From Trissonchulus latispiculum (Eukaryota; Nematoda; Enoplea; Enoplida; Ironidae), in the NCBI GenBank assembly GCA_030248195.1, contig JASAND010030439.1, forward strand, positions 1-64,000: a DNA stretch of 64,000 nucleotides, in the 5' to 3' direction. Below are positions 1,443 through 38,009 of the stretch, in pieces. The notes under the pieces are model-generated. The model did no database searches. It was not told the DNA's origin and saw only the letters and a list, made by a program, of their open reading frames with translations. Each line of letters begins with the position of its first letter. The stretch's first letter is position 1. The translations under genes were made by a program, and so were the position numbers.

Positions 1443-1651
1443 TGTGATGTTTATCATGTTTACCTTTGCTTGTAACCTAAAAACTATCTAAATTTTCGGA
1501 GTTTTGCTGAACTTTGTTTCCACGTTTTGACATTTCTAACTTTACGAATTGACATTTCGAACATCGCAACTCGTTTCAACATCGTTTTAATATTTAGTCA
1601 AAACATTCTTAAAATAATATTTTGCGTTTGAAGTTTTCCGACTTAGAAGGA

Positions 1652-1658
1652 TATAAAA
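1652..1658 (+). promoter_or_regulatory. LTR TATA box
   Basis: TATAAAA within GGATATAAAAGCAG, about 170 bp before the LTR end and about 107 bp before the AATAAA at 1765-1770. The same pair recurs in the 3' LTR (8947-8953 and 9060-9065). This spacing fits a U3-R-U5 layout with a short R. Confidence 0.75.
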
Positions 1659-1764
1659 GCAGACTCTTTCAGCAGACCGGGTTAGTCTTTGTTGGAACTT
1701 AAGCTAAAGCAGTTGCCGTAACTACCGTATGCTTCTTTGTGTTGCGTTTTCGCAGACCCCCGCC

Positions 1765-1770
1765 AATAAA
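1765..1770 (+). terminator. LTR polyadenylation signal
   Basis: AATAAA downstream of the TATA box. It would serve as the cleavage/poly(A) signal from the 3' LTR copy at 9060-9065. Confidence 0.6.
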
Positions 1771-1822
1771 GTACTGCAGCTTAGTTCGTATTAAAGTGTA
1801 GTGGCAAGCGCTTTGTCACACG

Positions 1823-1840
1823 TGGAGCCCCCGCGATTGC
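1823..1840 (+). promoter_or_regulatory. Candidate tRNA primer binding site
   Basis: TGGAGCCCCCGCGATTGC starts two bases (CG) after the 5' LTR, the standard position and TGG start for pairing with a tRNA CCA end. I cannot match it confidently to a specific tRNA. The TRIM-like element at 28.3 kb has the same CG spacer but a different site. Confidence 0.7.
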
Positions 1841-1847
1841 AACTCTT

Positions 1848-1891
1848 GTAAGTTAACATTTCTGTTTTCGCTGCTCTCCTTGTGTGTAAGT
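1848..1891 (+). promoter_or_regulatory. Two consensus splice donors in the leader
   Basis: GTAAGT occurs at 1848-1853 and again at 1886-1891, in repeated sequence contexts between the PBS and the gag start. These could be used to make a subgenomic RNA for the third ORF, which has a candidate acceptor at 6144-6154. This is inference from motif matches only. Confidence 0.4.
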
Positions 1892-1958
1892 TAATATTTA
1901 TTTGATTCTGCTGCTCTCGATTGGTTATTTGTAGATTGATAGTTATTTGAGTCCTCAA

Positions 1959-3908
1959 ATGGCAACACCGCCTGAAACTGATGTTGAGCGACTAATTAGA
2001 AGCAGACTCAGAGAATTTACGCAGGAGCTCACAGACAGTAATTCTAACAGACTTAACTCCTTGACTAGTCAACTCAGCGAACTTGCTGAGACTTCTGATG
2101 AATTTTCAACTACTCAAGCTACTAGGTCCCGAATTAGTACATTCTCTGGCAGACTTGATGAGAGTTTTTCAGATTGGCTGGAAAAGTTTGAGTTGGTTGC
2201 AGACAGTTTTGGCTGGTCAGCCGAGAAAAAGGCAAAAAAGTTACCTACGTTTTTAGACGAAAACGCACTCGAACAGTATAGGGACTTGAGCAGAGCACAG
2301 AAGGACAACTACGCGTTGTTAAAATCAGAACTAAAACTCAAGTTTACCAGACCCGAAAACCATCGTTTCAGCAGTTTGAAGCTCAAGAGCAGACAAAAAC
2401 TATCCTCTGAGTCTGTTGCTAATTATGCGGGAGTCATTAAGAAACTTGCTAGAGCAGCGTACCCCGACGATTTGGGAGAGAAATCACGTGATTTCCTGAT
2501 GATGGAAAATTTTATCTCTGGCCTTCCCCTCCCCCTGAAAAAGGCAGTTATGGAGGATGAACCTGAAACCTTTGCGAAAGCAGTTGAGCTAGCTCAGAAG
2601 GAGGAAGCACGTTTGCAGTATCTGAATTTGAGTATCGATCCCCTTCAGCAGAGCCTTGAAAGCAGTAAAAAGCTATGTGATCTTGTTGACGGCCTATCAA
2701 ATCTGATGAAAAAAAGGTCCGATTCCGAGACCGCTGCTGTAGGAGCTGTCAGCTCTCATAGCTCTAATCGCTACGGCGACACTTCAGAAGAACGGTTAAG
2801 CAGACTCGAGCGCCGTCTCGATGGATTATTCCGCAGACAGCAGAACCAAAACTTTAGACCACGTCAGAACAGCAATTTCACGCGTCGCCCCACTTCGAAT
2901 GCAGTTAACAGGCGCACTGCGGATAACAGACCCATTTGCAATTTTTGTTCCAAAATTGGACATATACAAGCAAATTGTAGGGCGAAACAAAGAAATAACA
3001 GAAATTTTCGTAATACTAGACCCATTGGGGTTGTAGATATTGACGAGGAGTCGAACCTCGACGGTCCTATTCGCGACAGTGCAGATTATGCTACATCAGA
3101 AGAGTTTGAATCTTTAAGAGCTCACGTTTCAAATCTGACTGATAGATTTTTTTCAGAAACGATTGGTCTAATTCAGGCAACTCCAGACCGGGATATGGAT
3201 GCCCGAGCAGACTCTTCGGAGCTCAGTGAGATTGCCCGACAAGAGGACAACGTGCCATCACAACTCCAGGAAGATTCAGTCACTGAAGGCAGACTTATCA
3301 TCGATGAAGATGCCAGACCTGACAACATTGGCAATAATTCTGGGAGTTCGCATGATCTAGCCAAGTCTGATGCCGCTGAGAATGGATCTGGAACCCCGGA
3401 TGATTTGTCAATATCCACGGGAGTAGAAGACCAGGATTCAGCAAGCAGCTATGTAAGCAATTTTGTTCCAAATGGCTACTGTCCATTATTTAATTTGCTC
3501 TTGTTAGTTGTCCTACTGCTAATAATGCCCGTCAATGCAACTCAAACCTTGAACTTTTGTGGGCAGTCCCGAAACGGTTTTCCAGTTGCTCTCCCTCAGA
3601 CTTTTAAGTGTCACTTACCTGAATTACACGAAGTTAGACACATATCAGTAGACCTTTATGTCCCCCATCTTGAGCCACAGACTACTGATGCTTATAGTTG
3701 TTATCTAGAGACAAGGACAGTATGTACTAATACCGGATTTTTTGGCTCAAAGGGTATCGTTTTTGATTCTATTCAAACTACAACTATAACTGTCGTCGAC
3801 TGTCAAAACGCAGTCGCTAGGAAAGTTTGGAGGAACCAAAAATTGGTAAAAAAGGATACTAATCTCTGGATTAGCGCCAATGAGCTAAGGATTTACGTTC
3901 GTTTTTAG
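1959..3908 (+). CDS. gag: Gag (capsid + nucleocapsid) with envelope-like C-terminal extension
   Basis: The start is taken at ATG 1959 (CAAATGG context); the open frame begins slightly earlier but has no earlier ATG. The protein is 649 aa. Residues about 55-225 resemble a Ty3/gypsy Gag capsid region (F-x-G near the start, SDWLEKFE, helical region rich in K/E/L). Residues 327-340 form one CX2CX4HX4C zinc knuckle in a basic stretch, typical of nucleocapsid. An acidic linker of about 160 aa follows. Then, unexpectedly for Gag, there is a hydrophobic segment near residues 511-523 followed by a Cys-bearing segment to the stop (see the separate entry). Protease, which normally follows nucleocapsid, is missing. 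The RT-containing frame overlaps the 3' end. Gag assembles the particle and packages RNA; a Gag carrying a membrane segment might behave differently. Confidence 0.9.
   Translation: MATPPETDVERLIRSRLREFTQELTDSNSNRLNSLTSQLSELAETSDEFSTTQATRSRISTFSGRLDESFSDWLEKFELVADSFGWSAEKKAKKLPTFLDENALEQYRDLSRAQKDNYALLKSELKLKFTRPENHRFSSLKLKSRQKLSSESVANYAGVIKKLARAAYPDDLGEKSRDFLMMENFISGLPLPLKKAVMEDEPETFAKAVELAQKEEARLQYLNLSIDPLQQSLESSKKLCDLVDGLSNLMKKRSDSETAAVGAVSSHSSNRYGDTSEERLSRLERRLDGLFRRQQNQNFRPRQNSNFTRRPTSNAVNRRTADNRPICNFCSKIGHIQANCRAKQRNNRNFRNTRPIGVVDIDEESNLDGPIRDSADYATSEEFESLRAHVSNLTDRFFSETIGLIQATPDRDMDARADSSELSEIARQEDNVPSQLQEDSVTEGRLIIDEDARPDNIGNNSGSSHDLAKSDAAENGSGTPDDLSISTGVEDQDSASSYVSNFVPNGYCPLFNLLLLVVLLLIMPVNATQTLNFCGQSRNGFPVALPQTFKCHLPELHEVRHISVDLYVPHLEPQTTDAYSCYLETRTVCTNTGFFGSKGIVFDSIQTTTITVVDCQNAVARKVWRNQKLVKKDTNLWISANELRIYVRF
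3480..3895 (+). pseudogene. Envelope-like glycoprotein N-terminal fragment fused in frame to gag
   Basis: Within the gag frame, a strongly hydrophobic Leu/Val-rich segment (signal-peptide-like) is followed by NAT, a possible glycosylation site, and about 115 residues with five cysteines, including the motif CTNTGFFGSK. This combination resembles the start of envelope-like glycoproteins carried by some animal LTR retroelements; I assign it by general pattern, not by a search. It is cut off at about 3882-3897, where RT sequence begins in a different frame, so the fusion region, stem and anchor are absent. No other envelope sequence occurs in this element. It could instead be a lineage-specific membrane tail of Gag. 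Confidence 0.6.
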
Positions 3909-6052
3909 GATTGTGTTCCTATTACAGACGTTTTATCAAAAATTTTTCTAGCATAGCCGCTCCATTGTATAAACTTCTAGAGAAAGATTCAAAGTTTGAA
4001 ATGAGCGATCAATCGATCGAAGCTTTTGAAAAGCTGAAAAGTGCGTTGACAGATAATGCCACACTGGCATACCCAGACTTTGCTAAACCATTTATATTGC
4101 AGACTGATGCTAGTGGAGTTGGCATCGGGGGGGTGCTCAGCCAAATTCAGGAAGGGATAGAGCGACCCATAGCTTTTGCTAGCAGATCCCTTACCAAAGC
4201 AGAAAGAATGTATCCGGCTGTGGAACAAGAAGCACTTGCTATAGTGTTTTTTGTTAAATATTTTAGACCATACTTGTACATGCATAATTTCACTGTAGTT
4301 ACAGACTGCCAAGCTCTAAAATGGCTATTGTCTATAAAAAACCCCTCAGCGCGGCTAAGTCGCTGGGGTTTATCTCTACAAGAATACTCAAATTGCATGA
4401 CGATCCAGTATCGCCCTGGCAAATCTAATAACAATGCAGACGCCTTGTCTAGACTTTGCGCTATTTTGGAAACTACGTACACAAACTTGCGCCAACTTTG
4501 CGAAATGCAGAAGAAGGATTCTTGGCTAGGTCCGATTTTTCGTTCACTTTCAGAGCCAAAGCGAAAATTCGACAGCAAATCCAATGCAGACACTAAAAAT
4601 TACAAACTTATTGAGGATGTTCTGTACTATATGCGACCTAATTGTTCTGCCAGATTTTCAAAATTATTGGCTATTCCTGCCGAGTTACAGTTTCAAATTT
4701 TTGAGGCTAACCACGACAGCATTTTTGCTGGACATTTAGGCTTTGGTAAAACATTTCAGAAGATACGAACCAGATATCATTGGCCGTCTATGAGGTCTGA
4801 TATACGGAATTGGTGCAGGGCATGCAAACCTTGCGCAGAACGCAAGGATCCACCGAAGCGCACGAAAGTGCCACTCATGCCCATTCCGGTGGAAGGTCCA
4901 TTCCGCCGTGTTTGCGTCGACACCTTAGGGCCTTTACCCACTACAACTTCTGGCAATAAACATATAGTAATTTTTGTAGACGCATTTACAAAATGGCCAG
5001 AAGCGTTTGCGGTCCCGAATGTACAGGCAGACACCATTGCTAAATTGTTTGTAGAGCGTATAGTATGCAGGTTTGGGACCCCTAGACAACTTTTGTCTGA
5101 CCGCGCCGCAAGTTTTTTGTCACAGCTTATGCTTTCAATTTGCAAACTTTTAAATATTGACAAAATTAACACTTCTGGTTATGCGCCGCAGACTAATGGC
5201 ATTGTCGAACGCTACAACAGTACTATCCTAAATATGTTGTCCATGTACACTTCTAGAAGACATGATGACTGGGACACGTACATTCCATACTGTTCGTTTG
5301 CATATAGAACTTCTGCTCACGAGTCTACAGGAGAATCGCCTTATTTTTTGTTATTTGGAAGAGATCCAACTCTTCCCTTGGATTCAGTTTTACTGGAACC
5401 TGTAAATGCAATTGCAGACATTAGAGACTTTAAGGAACTGGTTGTGCATCACTTAGGTAGTGTTTGGAAGACCGCTAAGCAGACAATAGCGGAGGCCCAA
5501 AGCAAGCAAAAATTTTATTATGACACGAACACGACTCAACCGAAGTTCCGGGTTGGGGACAGAGTTTATCTGTATACACCAGTTCTCCCGCGGCTTACCC
5601 AGGCTGACAAGGCTGCCGCAAATGGAACTTTATCAAATCCTTCACCAAAACTAGCAAAGTTCTGGTTTGGCCCATATAGGATTTTAGAAATTAAATTTCC
5701 TAATGCGCGAATTCAGTCTATAGACAACCCGCATAAACCTTCTAAGTTAGTGCACCTAAATAGACTAAAGATTTGTCATTCAGCCCATGTACCAAACCTT
5801 ACCGGCCCCAAAAACTTAGACAACTCTACGGAACCTGTTGAGAATAGGAATAATCGGAATGCTAAGTCAACCTGCTCAGACACTGAAGGTAACGAAACAG
5901 CTGAGCAGACAGAATCACTTAGATCTCATGTAGACACGGCGAACGAAAATGAAGCTACCGTAGATCAACAGCCTACGGATCAGACAGACCGACAGCATAC
6001 AGATTATAATTTGAGACAGAGACCCAAAAGAAGAGTTATCCTAGACTTATGA
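3884..6052 (+). CDS. pol: 5'-truncated Pol: RT thumb, RNase H, integrase
   Basis: The frame opens after a stop at 3881-3883 and has no credible ATG start. It begins at the conserved RT thumb motif DLRSFLGLCSYYRRF, so protease, RT fingers/palm and the catalytic YxDD are absent. RNase H follows (TDASGVGIGG near 4101, ending with NADALSRL near 4433-4456). Integrase has an HHCC zinc-binding region around 4710-4840 and a D-D-35-E core: Asp near 4917, Asp near 5099 and Glu near 5207, with exactly 35 residues between the last two. The C-terminus has the FGPYRI (GPY/F) motif near 5670 and a hydrophilic tail. Integrase inserts the cDNA into host DNA; RNase H degrades the RNA strand. The protein can be made only by frameshifting, re-initiation or not at all. 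Confidence 0.93.
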   Translation, partial: AKDLRSFLGLCSYYRRFIKNFSSIAAPLYKLLEKDSKFEMSDQSIEAFEKLKSALTDNATLAYPDFAKPFILQTDASGVGIGGVLSQIQEGIERPIAFASRSLTKAERMYPAVEQEALAIVFFVKYFRPYLYMHNFTVVTDCQALKWLLSIKNPSARLSRWGLSLQEYSNCMTIQYRPGKSNNNADALSRLCAILETTYTNLRQLCEMQKKDSWLGPIFRSLSEPKRKFDSKSNADTKNYKLIEDVLYYMRPNCSARFSKLLAIPAELQFQIFEANHDSIFAGHLGFGKTFQKIRTRYHWPSMRSDIRNWCRACKPCAERKDPPKRTKVPLMPIPVEGPFRRVCVDTLGPLPTTTSGNKHIVIFVDAFTKWPEAFAVPNVQADTIAKLFVERIVCRFGTPRQLLSDRAASFLSQLMLSICKLLNIDKINTSGYAPQTNGIVERYNSTILNMLSMYTSRRHDDWDTYIPYCSFAYRTSAHESTGESPYFLLFGRDPTLPLDSVLLEPVNAIADIRDFKELVVHHLGSVWKTAKQTIAEAQSKQKFYYDTNTTQPKFRVGDRVYLYTPVLPRLTQADKAAANGTLSNPSPKLAKFWFGPYRILEIKFPNARIQSIDNPHKPSKLVHLNRLKICHSAHVPNLTGPKNLDNSTEPVENRNNRNAKSTCSDTEGNETAEQTESLRSHVDTANENEATVDQQPTDQTDRQHTDYNLRQRPKRRVILDL

Positions 6053-6106
6053 CTATTAATTGATATTAGAATCGGTGATATTATTTATGATTACATAGCC
6101 ATATAT

Positions 6107-8404
6107 ATGTCCTGGTTTCTGTATATATTGAATGCAGACTACGTATTGTTTCAGGACGATGTAGACCAGCGGATGGACGTATCCACTTCACCCGAAGAAC
6201 CCGATCTCGAATCATGCGAAGCTCGATTCAAAGGGGGCAACGATGGAAGTCGACGTCTGGCACAGCCACTTCATGTGCCTCTAGTGAAGCCGCAGACTCC
6301 GCCGCCTCCGGCAAGCCCGCAGACTCCGCCGCCTCCGGCAAACCCGCAGACTCCGCCGCCTCCGGCAAACACGCAGACTCCGCCACCTTCGGTGAAGCCA
6401 CAGACTCCTCCGATTCCAGCACAGCCACTGAGCCCCCCTCCGCCAGATAATCCACAGACGCCTCCTCCGCAGCTGCCGCAGAACCAACAACCTAGGCTGC
6501 GCTCTGTGGTTGTGCGGCCGTCCCGTCCAGTGAACAATGCAGCAAATGTCAGACCTAGGGTAATTATTGTAAAACCCGATAATTACCTTTCCATTTTCAA
6601 TACCAGCTGCCCCATAACCTTGGCTGGTAAAACTTTTACTAGTACTATCCAAGCATTTGCGTACATACAGCTAATCCAGATGGGTATGGACGCATGTGCA
6701 GCAGAACTGTTTCATCAAATCTTTACAGATGATCCGAAGGAAGTCCTTGCCTTTCTGAAGACCAAGTCAGGGCACTTTGAACCGCTTCCGGCGCAGTGGA
6801 TCGCAATCAGGAACGACATCTTGCGTACTCTTTTGGTGGCTAAATGTCAGACCTATTTCGGTTACCGGAATGGCCTTGCAGCCACGGGAAATCAAATCTT
6901 AGCTCATTGCCATCGGCGTGACCTACTGATGGCAACAGGTCATTCCGAATCAGACACCCTATATCGCCATCCAGACAGCTGGCAGGGGAAGAATATCTAC
7001 GGCCGGTTGCTCATGGAAGTTCGTGACAACCGATCGGGCTCCTCCATGGATGGGATTGTAGACTTGACCCAGTGGGTTACATCTGTGGTCATTGACGTCA
7101 AACCTTCACGAACCGTACTGGTTTTGGGTGGAGCCGCATGCAGACATCTCTCTGAAATCGAAGGCGCCGTGATAAGATGCAGACCTAACTTCCATCTTGG
7201 TCATGTACCTGAGCTAGTTCATGGCTACCGGTTGGAAGAATTTTCTCATGTCATCGTGCAGACTGGATCTGTGGATGTGGATAAGTCCGACGATGAGCTA
7301 CGAGCTGATTTTGAAGAGATCTATGGCAGTGTTTCTGGCACTATGATCAGCTTCATGTCTCCCGTTCCGCCTGCCGCTGCCGACAAACTGCAGCATTTTA
7401 ACCAAAACCTCAAGGCCAAATGCGAGGAAGGAAACTATCTTTTCAAAGAAATTCCAGTCACGGCATTCTTACAGGAAGATGGGAATCCAAATCCCCGACT
7501 CTTTACGGAGATGGGAACGGTCAATATCACAGGAACACTGAAATTGTACGACATTTGGGCATCCTGGATCCCACTGTTGGACTCGTGCAAGCGATTTACT
7601 TCCTGTGCGGAATATGCGCAAAGAATTCACGGAATCTCTCCGGCTCTGCATCGCATTCGGCTAGCTCGTCAGAATCAGAATTCTCGATCAGACCCTGCTC
7701 CAGCAGACCAATCAGATCCTCGTCCTGTTTTACAACCATCAGCCGTTGTCAACCACGGAATTCCAGTTGAATCCGATCATAATATCAATGCCTACAGTGA
7801 AACGAGAGACGAGAAACCAGCTCCAGAGATCCAGAATCCTGCTCCTCCGCCAGTTGCGAACTTTCTCAGGCCAAACGGACCCACGGTCGGTCGAATCGCG
7901 GCCAGACCGCAGGATGCTCCTACACCGTTGCCTTCTGAGCAATTTCCTGCTCCAACTGTTCGGGCCCCGTTGATTTCATCAGCTCAACAGACCTGGCAGC
8001 AGCCGCAGTTGGTGGCCCAGCACGATCCCAACTGGAATGCAAACTACCAGTATGGCCAGCCGGCCATCAATTCATATCAACCAGGTTATCAACCGACGTC
8101 AGCAGCAGCCTACGCCCTGGTGCCGTACGCTCCTCGACAGGCGACAGGTTGGACTCAACGCTTGCCTGCTCCCGAATTCGCGTCTCCTACCGTGCAGATA
8201 TCATCTGTCCCGGTGACAAATTCAGCTTTTGGAAATCAGCAGACCCCAGTCCAATATACAGGAGCCTATGGACAGTACGTAGCTCCTTATCAGCAAGGAT
8301 GTTACCAATTCCCTCGCCCTACCGGTCAGACTACCTGTTGTTGCTTTCATCACCAACCCGGCCCGAGCTACTGCAGTCGTGGCGAGTTTTCTGGGGGAAT
8401 GTAA
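6107..8404 (+). CDS. Retrotransposon ORF3: Pro-rich, NADAR domain, degenerate SGNH-like domain, Gln/Pro-rich tail
   Basis: A 765-aa frame beginning 54 bp after pol; if spliced, the start may be ATG 6173. Residues about 58-125 are tandem PQTPPPPA-type repeats. Residues about 158-308 match the layout of the NADAR/YbiA family: hydrophobic start, GKTFTSTIQAF, WIAIRNDIL, LLMATG, DSWQGKN and GRLLMEVR. Family members are N-glycosidases acting on ADP-ribose-type or riboflavin-pathway substrates. Here the usual Glu of the GKxxxTxEH motif is Gln, so activity is uncertain. Residues about 337-495 follow an SGNH-hydrolase pattern (VLVLGGAACRH, VIVQTGSVDV, FMSPVPP, then FN), but the catalytic Ser is Ala and the late Asp/His motif is missing, so this domain looks inactive. 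The rest is Gln/Pro/Tyr-rich and probably disordered. The intact frame in a recent copy implies use. It is not an envelope. Confidence 0.85.
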   Translation: MSWFLYILNADYVLFQDDVDQRMDVSTSPEEPDLESCEARFKGGNDGSRRLAQPLHVPLVKPQTPPPPASPQTPPPPANPQTPPPPANTQTPPPSVKPQTPPIPAQPLSPPPPDNPQTPPPQLPQNQQPRLRSVVVRPSRPVNNAANVRPRVIIVKPDNYLSIFNTSCPITLAGKTFTSTIQAFAYIQLIQMGMDACAAELFHQIFTDDPKEVLAFLKTKSGHFEPLPAQWIAIRNDILRTLLVAKCQTYFGYRNGLAATGNQILAHCHRRDLLMATGHSESDTLYRHPDSWQGKNIYGRLLMEVRDNRSGSSMDGIVDLTQWVTSVVIDVKPSRTVLVLGGAACRHLSEIEGAVIRCRPNFHLGHVPELVHGYRLEEFSHVIVQTGSVDVDKSDDELRADFEEIYGSVSGTMISFMSPVPPAAADKLQHFNQNLKAKCEEGNYLFKEIPVTAFLQEDGNPNPRLFTEMGTVNITGTLKLYDIWASWIPLLDSCKRFTSCAEYAQRIHGISPALHRIRLARQNQNSRSDPAPADQSDPRPVLQPSAVVNHGIPVESDHNINAYSETRDEKPAPEIQNPAPPPVANFLRPNGPTVGRIAARPQDAPTPLPSEQFPAPTVRAPLISSAQQTWQQPQLVAQHDPNWNANYQYGQPAINSYQPGYQPTSAAAYALVPYAPRQATGWTQRLPAPEFASPTVQISSVPVTNSAFGNQQTPVQYTGAYGQYVAPYQQGCYQFPRPTGQTTCCCFHHQPGPSYCSRGEFSGGM
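6144..6154 (+). promoter_or_regulatory. Candidate splice acceptor for ORF3
   Basis: TATTGTTTCAG lies 19 bp before ATG 6173, an internal in-frame Met of ORF3 (MDVSTSPEE). With the leader donors it would give a spliced RNA whose first ATG opens ORF3. Motif-based inference. Confidence 0.4.
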
Positions 8405-8737
8405 ACAGCATCTTACTTTGTCTAGTTAGCTCGAAGTTGATAAAAATGTACATGGCATTACAAAAAAAGCATGATTCAATTTTTGAAAGTCGTAACAAAC
8501 TTTTACATTTTTATCACACCGTTTTTTGCAGATTTGTGTTTTATCATTGCTTACGATCTGTTTTATTTATGCAATACATGTTTAGTGTTGAGTGTGGGCT
8601 AGTATAGCAGACTTGCCTAATGTGTTTTTATTGTTTTTATTCCAATTTTTATCACTGGGCAGACGCATTAAGACTTGTAACATCTATTTTTGTTTGATCT
8701 TGTCGAACTGGGACGTTCGAATCTTTTCACCCCAGGG
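8405..8737 (+). other. Retrotransposon 3' untranslated region
   Basis: AT-rich, with no coding signal. A polypurine tract is expected directly before the 3' LTR, but only a short AGGG is present (CACCCCAGGG then the LTR), so plus-strand priming may use an atypical tract. Confidence 0.6.
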
Positions 8738-9115
8738 TGTGATGTTTATCATGTTTACCTTTGCTTGTAACCTAAAAACTATCTAAATTTTCGGAGTTTT
8801 GCTGAACTTTGTTTCCACGTTTTGACATTTCTAACTTTACGAATTGACATTTCGAACATCGCAACTCGTTTCAACATCGTTTTAATATTTAGTCAAAACA
8901 TTCTTAAAATAATATTTTGCGTTTGAAGTTTTCCGACTTAGAAGGATATAAAAGCAGACTCTTTCAGCAGACCGGGTTAGTCTTTGTTGGAACTTAAGCT
9001 AAAGCAGTTGCCGTAACTACCGTATGCTTCTTTGTGTTGCGTTTTCGCAGACCCCCGCCAATAAAGTACTGCAGCTTAGTTCGTATTAAAGTGTAGTGGC
9101 AAGCGCTTTGTCACA
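8738..9115 (+). repeat. 3' LTR
   Basis: 378 bp, identical by eye to the 5' LTR, with TATA at 8947 and AATAAA at 9060. It is followed by GTAA, the right target duplication. Confidence 0.95.
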
Positions 9116-10188
9116 GTAACCCAAAACTTTTTCAGATATGGATTAAACAGTTGGCTATGTTGGCTAGTTAAACAGAGTGGCTATGTGGTCAATTGTTGCC
9201 TGTCGCTTTGGCTATGTGGCAACTAACCACATAAGACTGAAAATTACCACATAATTTTTTCTTGTTCTTAAGGTTTGGCTTAGACTTAGGCTTAGATAAT
9301 TAAAGGCTTATAACAACTTAGCCTGGGCGCAGGACCGCTAAGCCTCCAACTTGCCAACTTACCCTGCAATTTGCCTTTGAAAATCTATACATGTATATAT
9401 TTGTATATCGGGACATAGATAACACCATGGCTACATCGGGCAACTAGGATGCAAAGCTAATAACAGGAATACATGTGGAAACTTAACTCTTGCAACAAAA
9501 TAGCGAAAGAAGCTTGAGAAATTTAGAAACTAATATGTTTACAATTAATCACCAATCAAGTCACAATATTCTCTTTCTTTTTGTTTTTTGTATCTCGTTT
9601 GTTTCTCACTTTGTAAGCGTATATACGATATATTTGATACGTTTTAAAGCCACCCGTATACTTCTCAATTTTTCCTGGCGCGCCCACAGGCGCGGCAGGG
9701 CCCTTTAAAGTTGGGTTTGCTTGCCGTGGTTTCCACAGGTGTGAACACATTCAGCTACAGCTTGCTGCGAAACAAAACATGGAAATAGTTGCTGCTGGCT
9801 TTTGAATAATTTGGCACTAGAAAATGTTGGATTTTCCCAGCTTCTAAAATTGGCACGTATAGTTAACTATGATAGAAATCGTAAATAAAGCAAATTGGCA
9901 GCTTTCCATTTTTCGAACTATATAAGCTGTTATAATTTCATTGATTTCATTCTATTCATTCATCATTTCATTCCATTGTAAAGGTTGCACGATATCCCTA
10001 TAGTAAACACATACAAGAAAAATTTAGTGTTTACGTCAATGCTAATTGCGAGAAAGAAGCTCCAGTTTTTTTACAAAACTAGCCTGGACAGACCTTTGCA
10101 TTTTGTATGGATAGACGGTTATCTTTGGGAAAGTAAGCAAGTGAGGGGGACATGGGCAGCTCAAAACAATTAAAGTGGCTAGGGCCCA
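9116..10188. other. No gene seen
   Basis: AT-rich sequence with only short chance frames. I recognise no repeat or RNA here. Confidence 0.5.
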
Positions 10189-11128: not shown

Positions 11129-11851
11129 ACAAAATTGGGGTCATGAAATTGATACAGCTATATCGAAAAGGCAAACCACCGTTGTAATGGAGAAAGCTAT
11201 GTAACGTAACTGGGGAATCAGTTAGCGAAAAGGCAACCGTTCCTGGGACTTGCCAAGCATGGAAGAATTTTGGTAATATAGTCATGCTGACTGAGATAAG
11301 GATACTCTTAGAAATGCTCACATCAATCAGCCCAAACACTGCTTCGAGCGAATTTTCAGTCAGCTGGTCTTCAGGATACTCTGCTGGGATATGTGGAGGA
11401 TGGATGGATTCAAACTTGTGAAAAATGGGAGCGCACAAATCCATCATAACAAACGAAATCACTGGATTCTTTCCTGCTACTTGTACAACGAAGTATATAT
11501 ATATATATATATATATATACGATTCAATGGCAACAGTTTTCAAACCAGATTCTAACCGAAGAAATCAGTTTAAGGCTTTGTAGCAGAAAGATAGTCGCCG
11601 GCCAATTGTGGTCAACATAATGCCATGCCAGCAGCAAAAAGCAGTGTTCGACTGTCACATAGCATAGCAAACCCACAGAGGTTTTACATGGCGGCTGTAC
11701 GCAGAGAAAGAAGTTTGTTCCGTCAAAGATGAGAAAGCATCTGGATCACTGCTTTGAGACGGGCAATTTAACGGTGTTTCCAGGAAAAACTGTAGCTTCT
11801 TCTCGGATTCAGCCTACTCAATTTTGGTTTACAGAATAGCAGAGGTCCCAA
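11129..11851. repeat. Second copy of the 1-1037 repeat family
   Basis: Shares the header, the CTGGTCTTCAGGATACTC block, the tandem-unit body and the tail ending CAGAATAGCAGAGGT with 1-1037, but has the body only once. It contains a (TA)n tract at about 11,490-11,520. It ends where the foldback element begins. Confidence 0.75.
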
Positions 11852-12738
11852 ATGTCCCAAACATATGGAATCCCGAATATCAGCTGATTTCGTCAAAAAT
11901 TGCGATAGTTATTCTATTTTTTCGATTTTCAAAATCCTTTGATCTTTGCCGCTTTTCCAACTTTAACTGGCCATTACTCGCTACTCACTCAATGCAAAAA
12001 TTATTTAATTGGACTTTCAGGACCGCCTACGTGTCAGCTTTCATGTGATATATGTGGTTTTTCAAAATTTGAAAATCGATTTTTTCGAAAAATACCACTT
12101 TTTGACCCAAAATTTCGACAATGCGAATCCAGCAAAAGTGGGTAAAAATAACATTATCATAAAGTTTGATCTGAGCTCAATCCAACGATATAAAGGTTTT
12201 GTGGCTACGGCTTAAATTGCTCCAGCAACGAATTTTTAAACAATTTCCTATTTCAGCTGATTTCTGACAAGTTGTGCTATATTGTGCATTGATTTGCCGC
12301 AAATAGTGTAAACTAGCCAAAAACCGGCTAAATGCGAAATTGTTTAAAAATTCGTTGCTCGAGCAATTTAAGCCGTAGCCACGAAAACATTATATCGTTA
12401 GATTCAGCTCAGATTAAACTTTGTGATAATGCTATTTTTACCCACTTTTGCTGGATTCGCATTGTCGAAATTTTCGGTCAAAAAGTGGTATTTTTCGAAA
12501 AAATCGATTTTCAAATTTTGAAAAACCACATATATCACATGAAAGCTGACACGTAAGCGGTCCTGAAAGTCCAATTAAATAATTTTTGCAGTAAGACTTG
12601 ACTGAGTAGCGAGTAATGGCCAGTTAAAGTTGGAAAAGCGGCAAAGATCAAAGGATTTTGAAAATCGAAAAAATTGAATAACTGTCGCAATTTTTGACGA
12701 AATCAGCTGATATTCGGGATTCCATATGTTTGGGACAT
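11852..12738. mobile_element. Long foldback (palindromic) element, 887 bp
   Basis: The left arm starts ATGTCCCAAACATATGG and the right arm ends in its complement. The arms are about 400 bp each with a few per cent mismatch, around a loop near 12,250-12,330. There is no coding capacity, and no clear target duplication was found. Probably a non-autonomous DNA transposon; transcribed, it would form a long hairpin RNA. Confidence 0.8.
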
Positions 12739-37123: not shown

Positions 37124-38009
37124 TTAAAATAAACAGCTTTTCCCCCTTCGTACCACTGCTAGACTGAGTAGTACATTTTTCCGTGAAGTCGGAAGGGGCT
37201 GAAGTGAACGTTGCTTAGAGGGCAGTAGCCAGTAGAGAAAGTAGCGCAACCATGGACTGTGGTTGGCTCCACTATAGTAGAATTTTTTGAGATGTTCTTT
37301 GACGTCGTTTATGGTTTTTTCTGCTTTTATGTCTGCTTTTATGTACTCTCCACTTACAATCTTTTTGTTAAACTTTTCCAATCCTTCGATCATCCGTTTC
37401 CAAATACTTTCCTCAAAATCAACTTGAAATACTAGTAGCTCATTCTTTCTGAGCGTGCACAACTAAGTCGCATCTCTTTATTCCTGTAAGACCCATCATT
37501 CCCATAATCTGATAGAAATACTTATGCCGTCTTTTTAGAACAAGTTTGGTGCCCTGGGAAATTAGGTAGAACCCTTTCCTTTGGAGAACGATTTCGAAAA
37601 TAGAACGGGGTTTGGGATTCTGATCGTAAATTGTCTTTATTTCTAAAAGCCATGGGTCAGGGTTTCCATCCTCGTATACAATACCGTCAGGACTGCCACC
37701 CAGCCGATCTAAGTGAGGAGGAACGCAAAAGCCTGCCGGAAGAACTCGAACTGCATAGTTCATGTGTCTAATATATGCTTGTCTCCCATCGTCTTCGTAG
37801 CGGAGTCCGTAGGCGCAAGCCGGAATTACCTTTCTGTCCGGATTGTTTATGCGCTCAGCAAGATTTTTGGCTGCTTTCTCTGAGTTTACCATAAGAACGT
37901 ACCCGAATTTTGAACTAGTTATCCTTCCCTTCCTGTGGCTGAACCAGTTTTCATTGTCGCTCTGGCCCAGTGTGGACAAAAAGACCTCTGTATCTATCGC
38001 TGCCGACAT
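37124..38009 (-). pseudogene. YqaJ / lambda-exonuclease-like nuclease, frameshifted
   Basis: The frame from ATG 38,009 (189 codons) has NENWFSHRKGRITSSKFG, AYGLRYEDDGRQAY, LGGSPDGIV, WLLEIKT and YFYQIMGMMGLTG. This is the order of the YqaJ recombinase family, with the metal-binding Asp (SPDG) and E-x-K (EIK) present. At about 37,440-37,462 the frame stops, but the family's next block continues in another frame (KNELLVFQVDFEESIW), indicating a one-base shift. Members are 5'-3' exonucleases used by phages, large viruses and some transposons in recombination. The start overlaps the end of the upstream ORF by 16 bp. Family call is by motif. Confidence 0.75.

Follow-up and report, generated by a model that had tools for sequence, protein, structure and literature searches.

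NADAR domains have recently been shown to strip ADP-ribose from guanine. That retrotransposons can carry such domains is already in print for the Pol proteins of Gypsy elements and for open reading frame 1 (ORF1) of Tx1 long interspersed nuclear elements (LINEs) in Crassostrea gigas (PMC12477816), the only report of a NADAR with a Gypsy element that we noticed in the open-licence literature. Also in print are the GDSL (SGNH-type) third ORFs downstream of pol in the Vesta1 long terminal repeat (LTR) retrotransposons and Athena elements of bdelloid rotifers, including Athena-L derivatives without catalytic residues (PMC5408684). In the envelope (env) position of Cer1, a Gypsy/Ty3 element of C. 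elegans, lies CERV, a spliced non-envelope protein required for export of genomic RNA (PMC10309623). Here we describe a Ty3/Gypsy-like LTR element of the nematode Trissonchulus latispiculum, located in the first 64,000 nucleotides of contig JASAND010030439.1 (assembly GCA_030248195.1; this 64-kb stretch is hereafter the window), whose third ORF (ORF3) occupies the env position and fuses a NADAR domain to an SGNH fold, with the catalytic residues of both replaced in this copy.

A retrotransposon-borne NADAR is what ORF3 shares with these published Gypsy and LINE elements; in those, however, the domain is part of Pol or of LINE ORF1, without mention of an SGNH fusion in the available text, whereas ORF3 is SGNH-fused, in the env position and devoid of the catalytic residues. 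Vesta1 and Athena likewise have an SGNH-type ORF3 downstream of pol, but the available text on them mentions neither a NADAR nor a glycoprotein inside gag-pol. The likeness to CERV is one of description: the text available contains no mention of NADAR or SGNH, and the first three CERV exons lie in the gag frame. Among host proteins, the OSK domain of Oskar (PDB 5a4a, 5cd9), an insect germ-plasm protein, is a catalytically inactive SGNH fold that binds RNA in vitro (PMC12247748). SNA-3 of C. elegans, an animal protein with NADAR domains, is required for SL1 trans-splicing, and the residues are not conserved in its NADAR1 (PMC9303266), but it is a host gene with three NADARs, for which the available text does not mention SGNH, whereas ORF3 is element-borne. 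TASOR is on record as a pseudo-poly(ADP-ribose) polymerase. The combination of a NADAR-SGNH fusion in an env-position ORF, a NADAR without its catalytic residues and a glycoprotein within the gag-pol frame was not noticed in the open-licence literature.

An earlier note on this DNA had observed that the ORF after pol carries both domains, and this was borne out by a Pfam match for NADAR and by fold for SGNH. The frame comprises a proline-rich N-terminal tail, the NADAR domain (residues 169–307), the SGNH fold (residues 332–493, approximate limits) and a proline- and glutamine-rich C-terminal tail. A Pfam scan of ORF3 returned NADAR alone (superfamily PF08719, 51 bits against a curated cut-off of 35.1), while by fold the protein belongs with both the NADAR/YbiA proteins and the SGNH superfamily. 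As a separate observation, a Cys/His cluster (CCCFHH...C) is present near the C-terminus of the window's ORF3 (about residues 740–760); among the ORF3 frames, 14 of 16 from the window's family side and 0 of 8 from the L064–L074 group have at least three Cys within their last 60 residues, some of these frames being perhaps truncated.

The genome (734 Mb) yielded 64 matches to the window protein and 101 to the core of a relative, L068, together amounting to 107 places, with same-contig places more than 2.5 kb apart counted separately. Many of these places are partial or broken, and the counts are lower bounds because only the best candidates were scored. Residues were compared in an alignment (A1) of 22 rows, the window being L001, which was drawn from 24 near-full cores by omitting L008 (partial core) and L073 (core nearly identical to that of L072). 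Further loci were omitted as broken, partial or incomplete in the core (L004, L005, L009, L010, L013, L017–L028, L063, L069, L070 and L075–L078), and four deep members (L080–L083) were aligned separately. ORF3 frames were still open down to 24% identity. Two short motifs recur outside the folds (Table 1), of which KRFxS....xQ is not kept in the four deep members.

In the NADAR of P. nicotianae, E43, K50 and E125 are reported as essential or ribose-coordinating (PMC11543638). These places were fixed by aligning the 8bau chain, whose numbering is offset by two from that of the paper, with canonical NADARs, and were carried over to ORF3 by comparison with canonical NADAR profiles. E. coli YbiA (2b3w) and the P. 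nicotianae protein (PDB 8bau) both have Glu, Lys and Glu there, the Lys of YbiA aligning with K50, whereas ORF3 is without them. At the E43 place the window has Ile (I181), and Glu occurs in 0/22 rows; the K50 place is Gln (Q188) in the window, with Lys in 0/22 rows and Arg in 7/22; the E125 place is His (H267), and the 22 rows divide into 10 His, 10 Tyr and 2 Cys. Although the catalytic Glu was counted as absent at the E125 place, Asp or His occurs there in some NADAR subfamilies, and this place alone is not decisive because phage NADARs have His (PMC11543638). By comparison, all 30 control NADARs from the same genome (L031–L060, the loci given among 150 scored and 2478 candidates) hold Glu, Lys, Glu and Asp, although several are near-identical copies and represent fewer than 30 independent cases. 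The active ADP-ribose glycosidase proposed in the earlier note was therefore set aside as the preferred explanation.

The phosphate side of the pocket has fared differently. Trp is found at the W89 place (window W231) in 20/22 rows, Arg at the R93 place (R235) in 22/22, and Asp at the D130 place (D272) in 21/22 with Glu in the other; the K75 and R79 places are not clearly kept. The W133 place is Trp in 0/22 rows; it was considered as an activity marker and rejected, as Phe occupies it in 11 of the 30 control NADARs. The deep members also lack the catalytic set, yet all four keep Trp at the W133 place. In these alignments no family member has a NADAR with the catalytic residues, and binding in the pocket without catalysis is possible because the places of W231, R235 and D272 are kept.

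The apparently dead SGNH domain of the earlier note, with Gly-Gly-Ala for Gly-Asp-Ser, held for the window copy, in which GGA, GSVD and MGTVN stand where GDS, GxND and DxxH belong. The block I Ser is kept in 8/22 rows (L064, L065, L066, L067, L068, L071, L072 and L074); L065–L068 have GDS with DRLH, L072 and L074 have SDS with GIND, and L064, a long branch in the ORF3 tree, has SDS. Deep member L081 combines GDS and GIND with a His in DGEFH, which exceeds DxxH by one residue. The Ser pattern needs a single change on the tree, the 14 rows without Ser forming one group (97/95), and the Ser appears to have been lost once, later, in the window's clade. Since no NADAR row is complete, whereas Ser is kept in 8/22 rows with a single change on the tree, decay of the NADAR extends through the whole family as sampled, and that of the SGNH half is younger.

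Across 11 diverged pairs of cores, the proportion of synonymous differences (pS) was 0.77–0.86 and that of nonsynonymous differences (pN) 0.19–0.31; dN/dS is not given for these pairs because the synonymous sites are saturated. ORF3 looks to be under selection, with the folds and particular residues kept. In the comparison across copies that the earlier note had proposed, pN lies well below pS in the diverged pairs, at saturation, and the ratios of young pairs (see below) are not decisive. The same note's description of an intact frame maintained in a very recent copy stood as regards youth and the frames open in some sister copies, but many sister copies are partial or broken. Outside this genome, no protein matched the window's ORF3 among the best 7996 candidates scored; an alignment search (7998 scored) gave one match, with a NADAR seen by eye and no ORF3-like remainder; and the viral_contigs set held no ORF3 relative, three stretches fitting the pattern and none being confirmed. 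For the two protein searches this absence is weak evidence, because each scored only those candidates that had most words in common with the query.

The premise of the earlier note, that a third ORF after pol takes the place of an envelope, is altered by a glycoprotein found at another position. In sister copy C8495 (L079, G000:C8495:13400-17100), one frame runs from the gag end through a class III viral glycoprotein (PF24664 Monjiviricetes_fusion, 1.6e-17) and a protease match (PF13975, 7.6e-4, below cut-off) into the reverse transcriptase (RT; PF00078, 1.3e-35). There were 143 scored matches to the N-terminal part of this glycoprotein, on 126 contigs of the genome, and glycoprotein-like segments lay 0–9 kb upstream on the same strand at 40/107 ORF3 places, 31 of them at 5.0–6.5 kb, against controls of 2 (other strand) and 1 (downstream); the remaining 67 places had no such segment among the 143 scored matches. 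Given that sister copies encode the glycoprotein at another position, ORF3 has not simply taken over from env, and the idea that it is a divergent env was rejected on this ground and on the Pfam result. The order gag-glycoprotein-pro-pol is unusual, and we noticed no open-licence paper describing a glycoprotein placed between gag and pol. Arthropod retrotransposons with captured chuvirus-derived glycoproteins are on record; Anakin elements took their envelope gene from a chuvirus, and Troyka elements are without one (PMC12440569).

LTR elements typically express their ORF3s through spliced messages (PMC5408684), and the layout here resembles such an arrangement. GTAAGT occurs twice in the 130-nt leader, against 0.04 expected at the window's rate, and a candidate acceptor precedes ORF3 (Table 1). 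Upstream of ORF3 (16/21 loci inspected), TTTCAG or TTCCAG was present in 11/16, and in relatives L065–L068 the acceptor CAG directly abuts the ORF3 ATG. ORF3 would then be translated from a subgenomic spliced message.

Taken together, we read ORF3 as a Ty3/Gypsy-like element's accessory protein that is expressed by splicing from the retroviral env position and whose core would consist of two fused pseudoenzymes, a NADAR without catalytic residues and an SGNH fold. A binding protein is proposed because the folds are conserved with catalysis lost, because the gene is in the env position with splice-like sites, and because the tails are of low complexity; selection on the folds and on particular residues makes binding the most likely way in which it works. 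The favoured target would be the element's own RNA or ribonucleoprotein (RNP), in packaging or nuclear export as with CERV for Cer1, and the NADAR pocket may hold a phosphate-rich or ADP-ribose-like ligand. OSK offers a precedent for RNA binding by an SGNH fold that is inactive as an enzyme. We give an RNA- or RNP-binding pseudoenzyme about an even chance of being correct.

Several observations weigh against this proposal. The core is not basic (isoelectric point 6.7; NADAR half 8.7, SGNH half 5.2), which disfavours unspecific RNA binding, and OSK, whose sequence similarity to ORF3 is not significant (E 0.72), is one among many SGNH folds of similar Z. Loss at the E43 place alone is no proof of inactivity, because E88A at that place in the NADAR of E. 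coli C7 made little difference in vitro (PMC11543638), and the Pfam NADAR match is weak or missing in the four deep members (0.0065, 0.048 and two with none). The evidence on selection comes from ORF3 and from diverged pairs saturated in synonymous change, while six young pairs, with few changes, gave dN/dS of 0.18–0.75, and the SGNH half of L068/L071 gave 1.12. As to splicing, 3/16 loci have only TTTAG and 2/16 neither acceptor form, an ATG at 6159, followed immediately by a stop, precedes the proposed start at 6173, and ORF3 shares the pol frame in L011, L012, L014, L015 and L030, where a fused product is possible.

The first rival holds that the NADAR half reads ADP-ribose, binding it, whether alone or on an ADP-ribosylated protein or end, and so shielding it or competing with host macrodomains without hydrolysis. 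The invariant Arg at the R93 place, a pyrophosphate contact that the alignment also shows in the four deep members, speaks for this, and it is not a general feature, since eight canonical NADARs of alignment A2 have Ala (7) or Lys (1); the largely retained W89 and D130 places and the Trp of the deep members at W133 point the same way. Loss of K50 and of both distal-ribose acids, together with the missing W133 Trp in the 22 rows and the unclear K75/R79 places, makes such a reader unlikely. An enzyme still removing host-added ADP-ribose from the element's nucleic acid or protein, as proposed in the earlier note, would fit the conserved fold and pocket frame, the phage-like His of the window at the E125 place, and the in vitro activity of K95R (K50 place) in the NADAR of E. 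coli C7 (PMC11543638), Arg being what 7/22 rows have there. We nonetheless regard it as distinctly improbable, given Gln and Ile at the K50 and E43 places of the window, Tyr or Cys at the E125 place in 12/22 rows, and not one row with all three residues.

That the family works through its SGNH half, by lipid or ester chemistry or the membrane targeting proposed for CR1-type ORF1, and that this half has turned structural in the window's clade, is improbable. The rows with Ser, several with further blocks, and the GDS, GIND and His of L081 agree with it, as do the CR1, RTEX and ZfL2 esterases described as catalytically active (PMC5408684, PMC3905857) and the GDSL ORF3 of rotifer Vesta1 (PMC5408684); but SGNH catalysis cannot be the role in the 14-row clade, because the Ser is gone there though the fold is conserved. 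An env-like or particle role in egress or attachment would suit the env position and the P- and Q-rich tails, but seems very improbable with a class III glycoprotein encoded elsewhere and Pfam giving NADAR only; late-domain motifs (P[TS]AP, PPxY, YPxnL), considered as a clue to a particle role, were set aside, being found in just 3/15 ORF3s scanned. A functionless passenger, undecayed in young copies, would account for the youth of the window copy and the existence of broken ones, but its probability is close to negligible, as frames are open and amino-acid change is limited over deep divergence in which synonymous sites are saturated.

The features of the element are collected in Table 1. The whole element spans 1443–9115 of the window, and since its LTRs are identical (0 differences) the copy is young. 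Its assignment to Ty3/Gypsy (Metaviridae) is by LTR features, domain matches and domain order: a TG...CA LTR pair, a short target duplication, gag, and RNase H ahead of integrase. The gag carries a zinc-knuckle-like CNFCSKIGHIQANC, for which the Pfam match is under the cut-off. Relative to C8495, the internal deletion took the protease together with the greater part of both the glycoprotein and the RT.

Table 1. Coordinates of the LTR element and its parts in the window.
Feature	Position	Strand	Remarks
5' LTR	1443..1820	+	378 bp; TG...CA ends; exact identity with 3' LTR; GTAA duplication at 1439-1442
Candidate 5' splice donor GTAAGT, leader	1848..1853	+	motif scan
Second candidate 5' splice donor GTAAGT, leader	1886..1891	+	motif scan
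gag ORF with glycoprotein-fragment tail	1947-3908	+	one open frame
gag	1959..3467	+	Retrotrans_gag PF03732, 3e-6; 3' boundary with glycoprotein part approximate
N-terminal piece of class III viral glycoprotein	3468..3888	+	in frame behind gag, cut by deletion; Rhabdo_glycop_FD 0.059, below cut-off
Deletion junction	3887..3888	.	3112 bp internal loss versus sister copy C8495; 2-base overlap
pol remnant (RT end, RNase H, integrase)	3911..6052	+	PF17917 1.6e-38; PF17921 4.1e-22; PF00665 8.6e-9
ORF3	6107..8404	+	765 called codons; start probably at ATG 6173 (residue 23)
Candidate 3' splice acceptor TATTGTTTCAG	6144..6154	+	before ORF3; ends 18 bases ahead of first in-frame ATG 6173
EARFK motif, residues 38-42	6218..6232	+	N-terminal tail; EARFK or ESRFK in 14/15 ORF3s scanned
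NADAR domain	6611..7027	+	catalytic places I181, Q188, H267; retained W231, R235, D272
SGNH fold	7100..7585	+	Ser, Asn and His of catalytic set gone
KRFxS....xQ motif, residues 495-505	7589..7621	+	directly behind SGNH fold; K, S, Q in 22/22 rows
3' LTR	8738..9115	+	378 bp; GTAA target duplication at 9116-9119

Elsewhere in the window, one repeat flanks the LTR element on both sides (75-985 and 11204-11791), two copies being in tandem at about 187-985 and a further one lying near 11397-11791. Hairpin-like inverted repeats occupy 11852-12738, with arms 11852-11992/12598-12738 (98%) and 11988-12253/12330-12595 (94%). A second mobile-element-like gene is a YqaJ-like viral recombinase ORF on the reverse strand at 37440-38009 (PF09588, 3.6e-12; Viral_alk_exo, 1.1e-4). 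Canonical NADARs are abundant in the genome, the 150 scored among the first-look candidates all exceeding 124 bits; that of L031 adjoins a Pox_A32-type ATPase and a TBP-like protein, that of L044 a YqaJ recombinase, and that of L037 closes a 645-residue open stretch. NADAR may travel here on mobile or virus-like elements of several kinds.

For this Gypsy-like lineage we tentatively picture a plan of gag-glycoprotein-protease-RT-RNase H-integrase, in which the freed env slot might have been used over deep divergence for a reader of ADP-ribose-like or RNA ligands built from two dead enzymes. The glycoprotein between gag and protease, if expressed, would be an odd route to an entry protein for a retroelement. 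A NADAR in a mobile element is, as a caution, no proof of a weapon against ADP-ribosylation, and the family offers a natural series in which to ask about non-catalytic roles of NADAR and SGNH folds.
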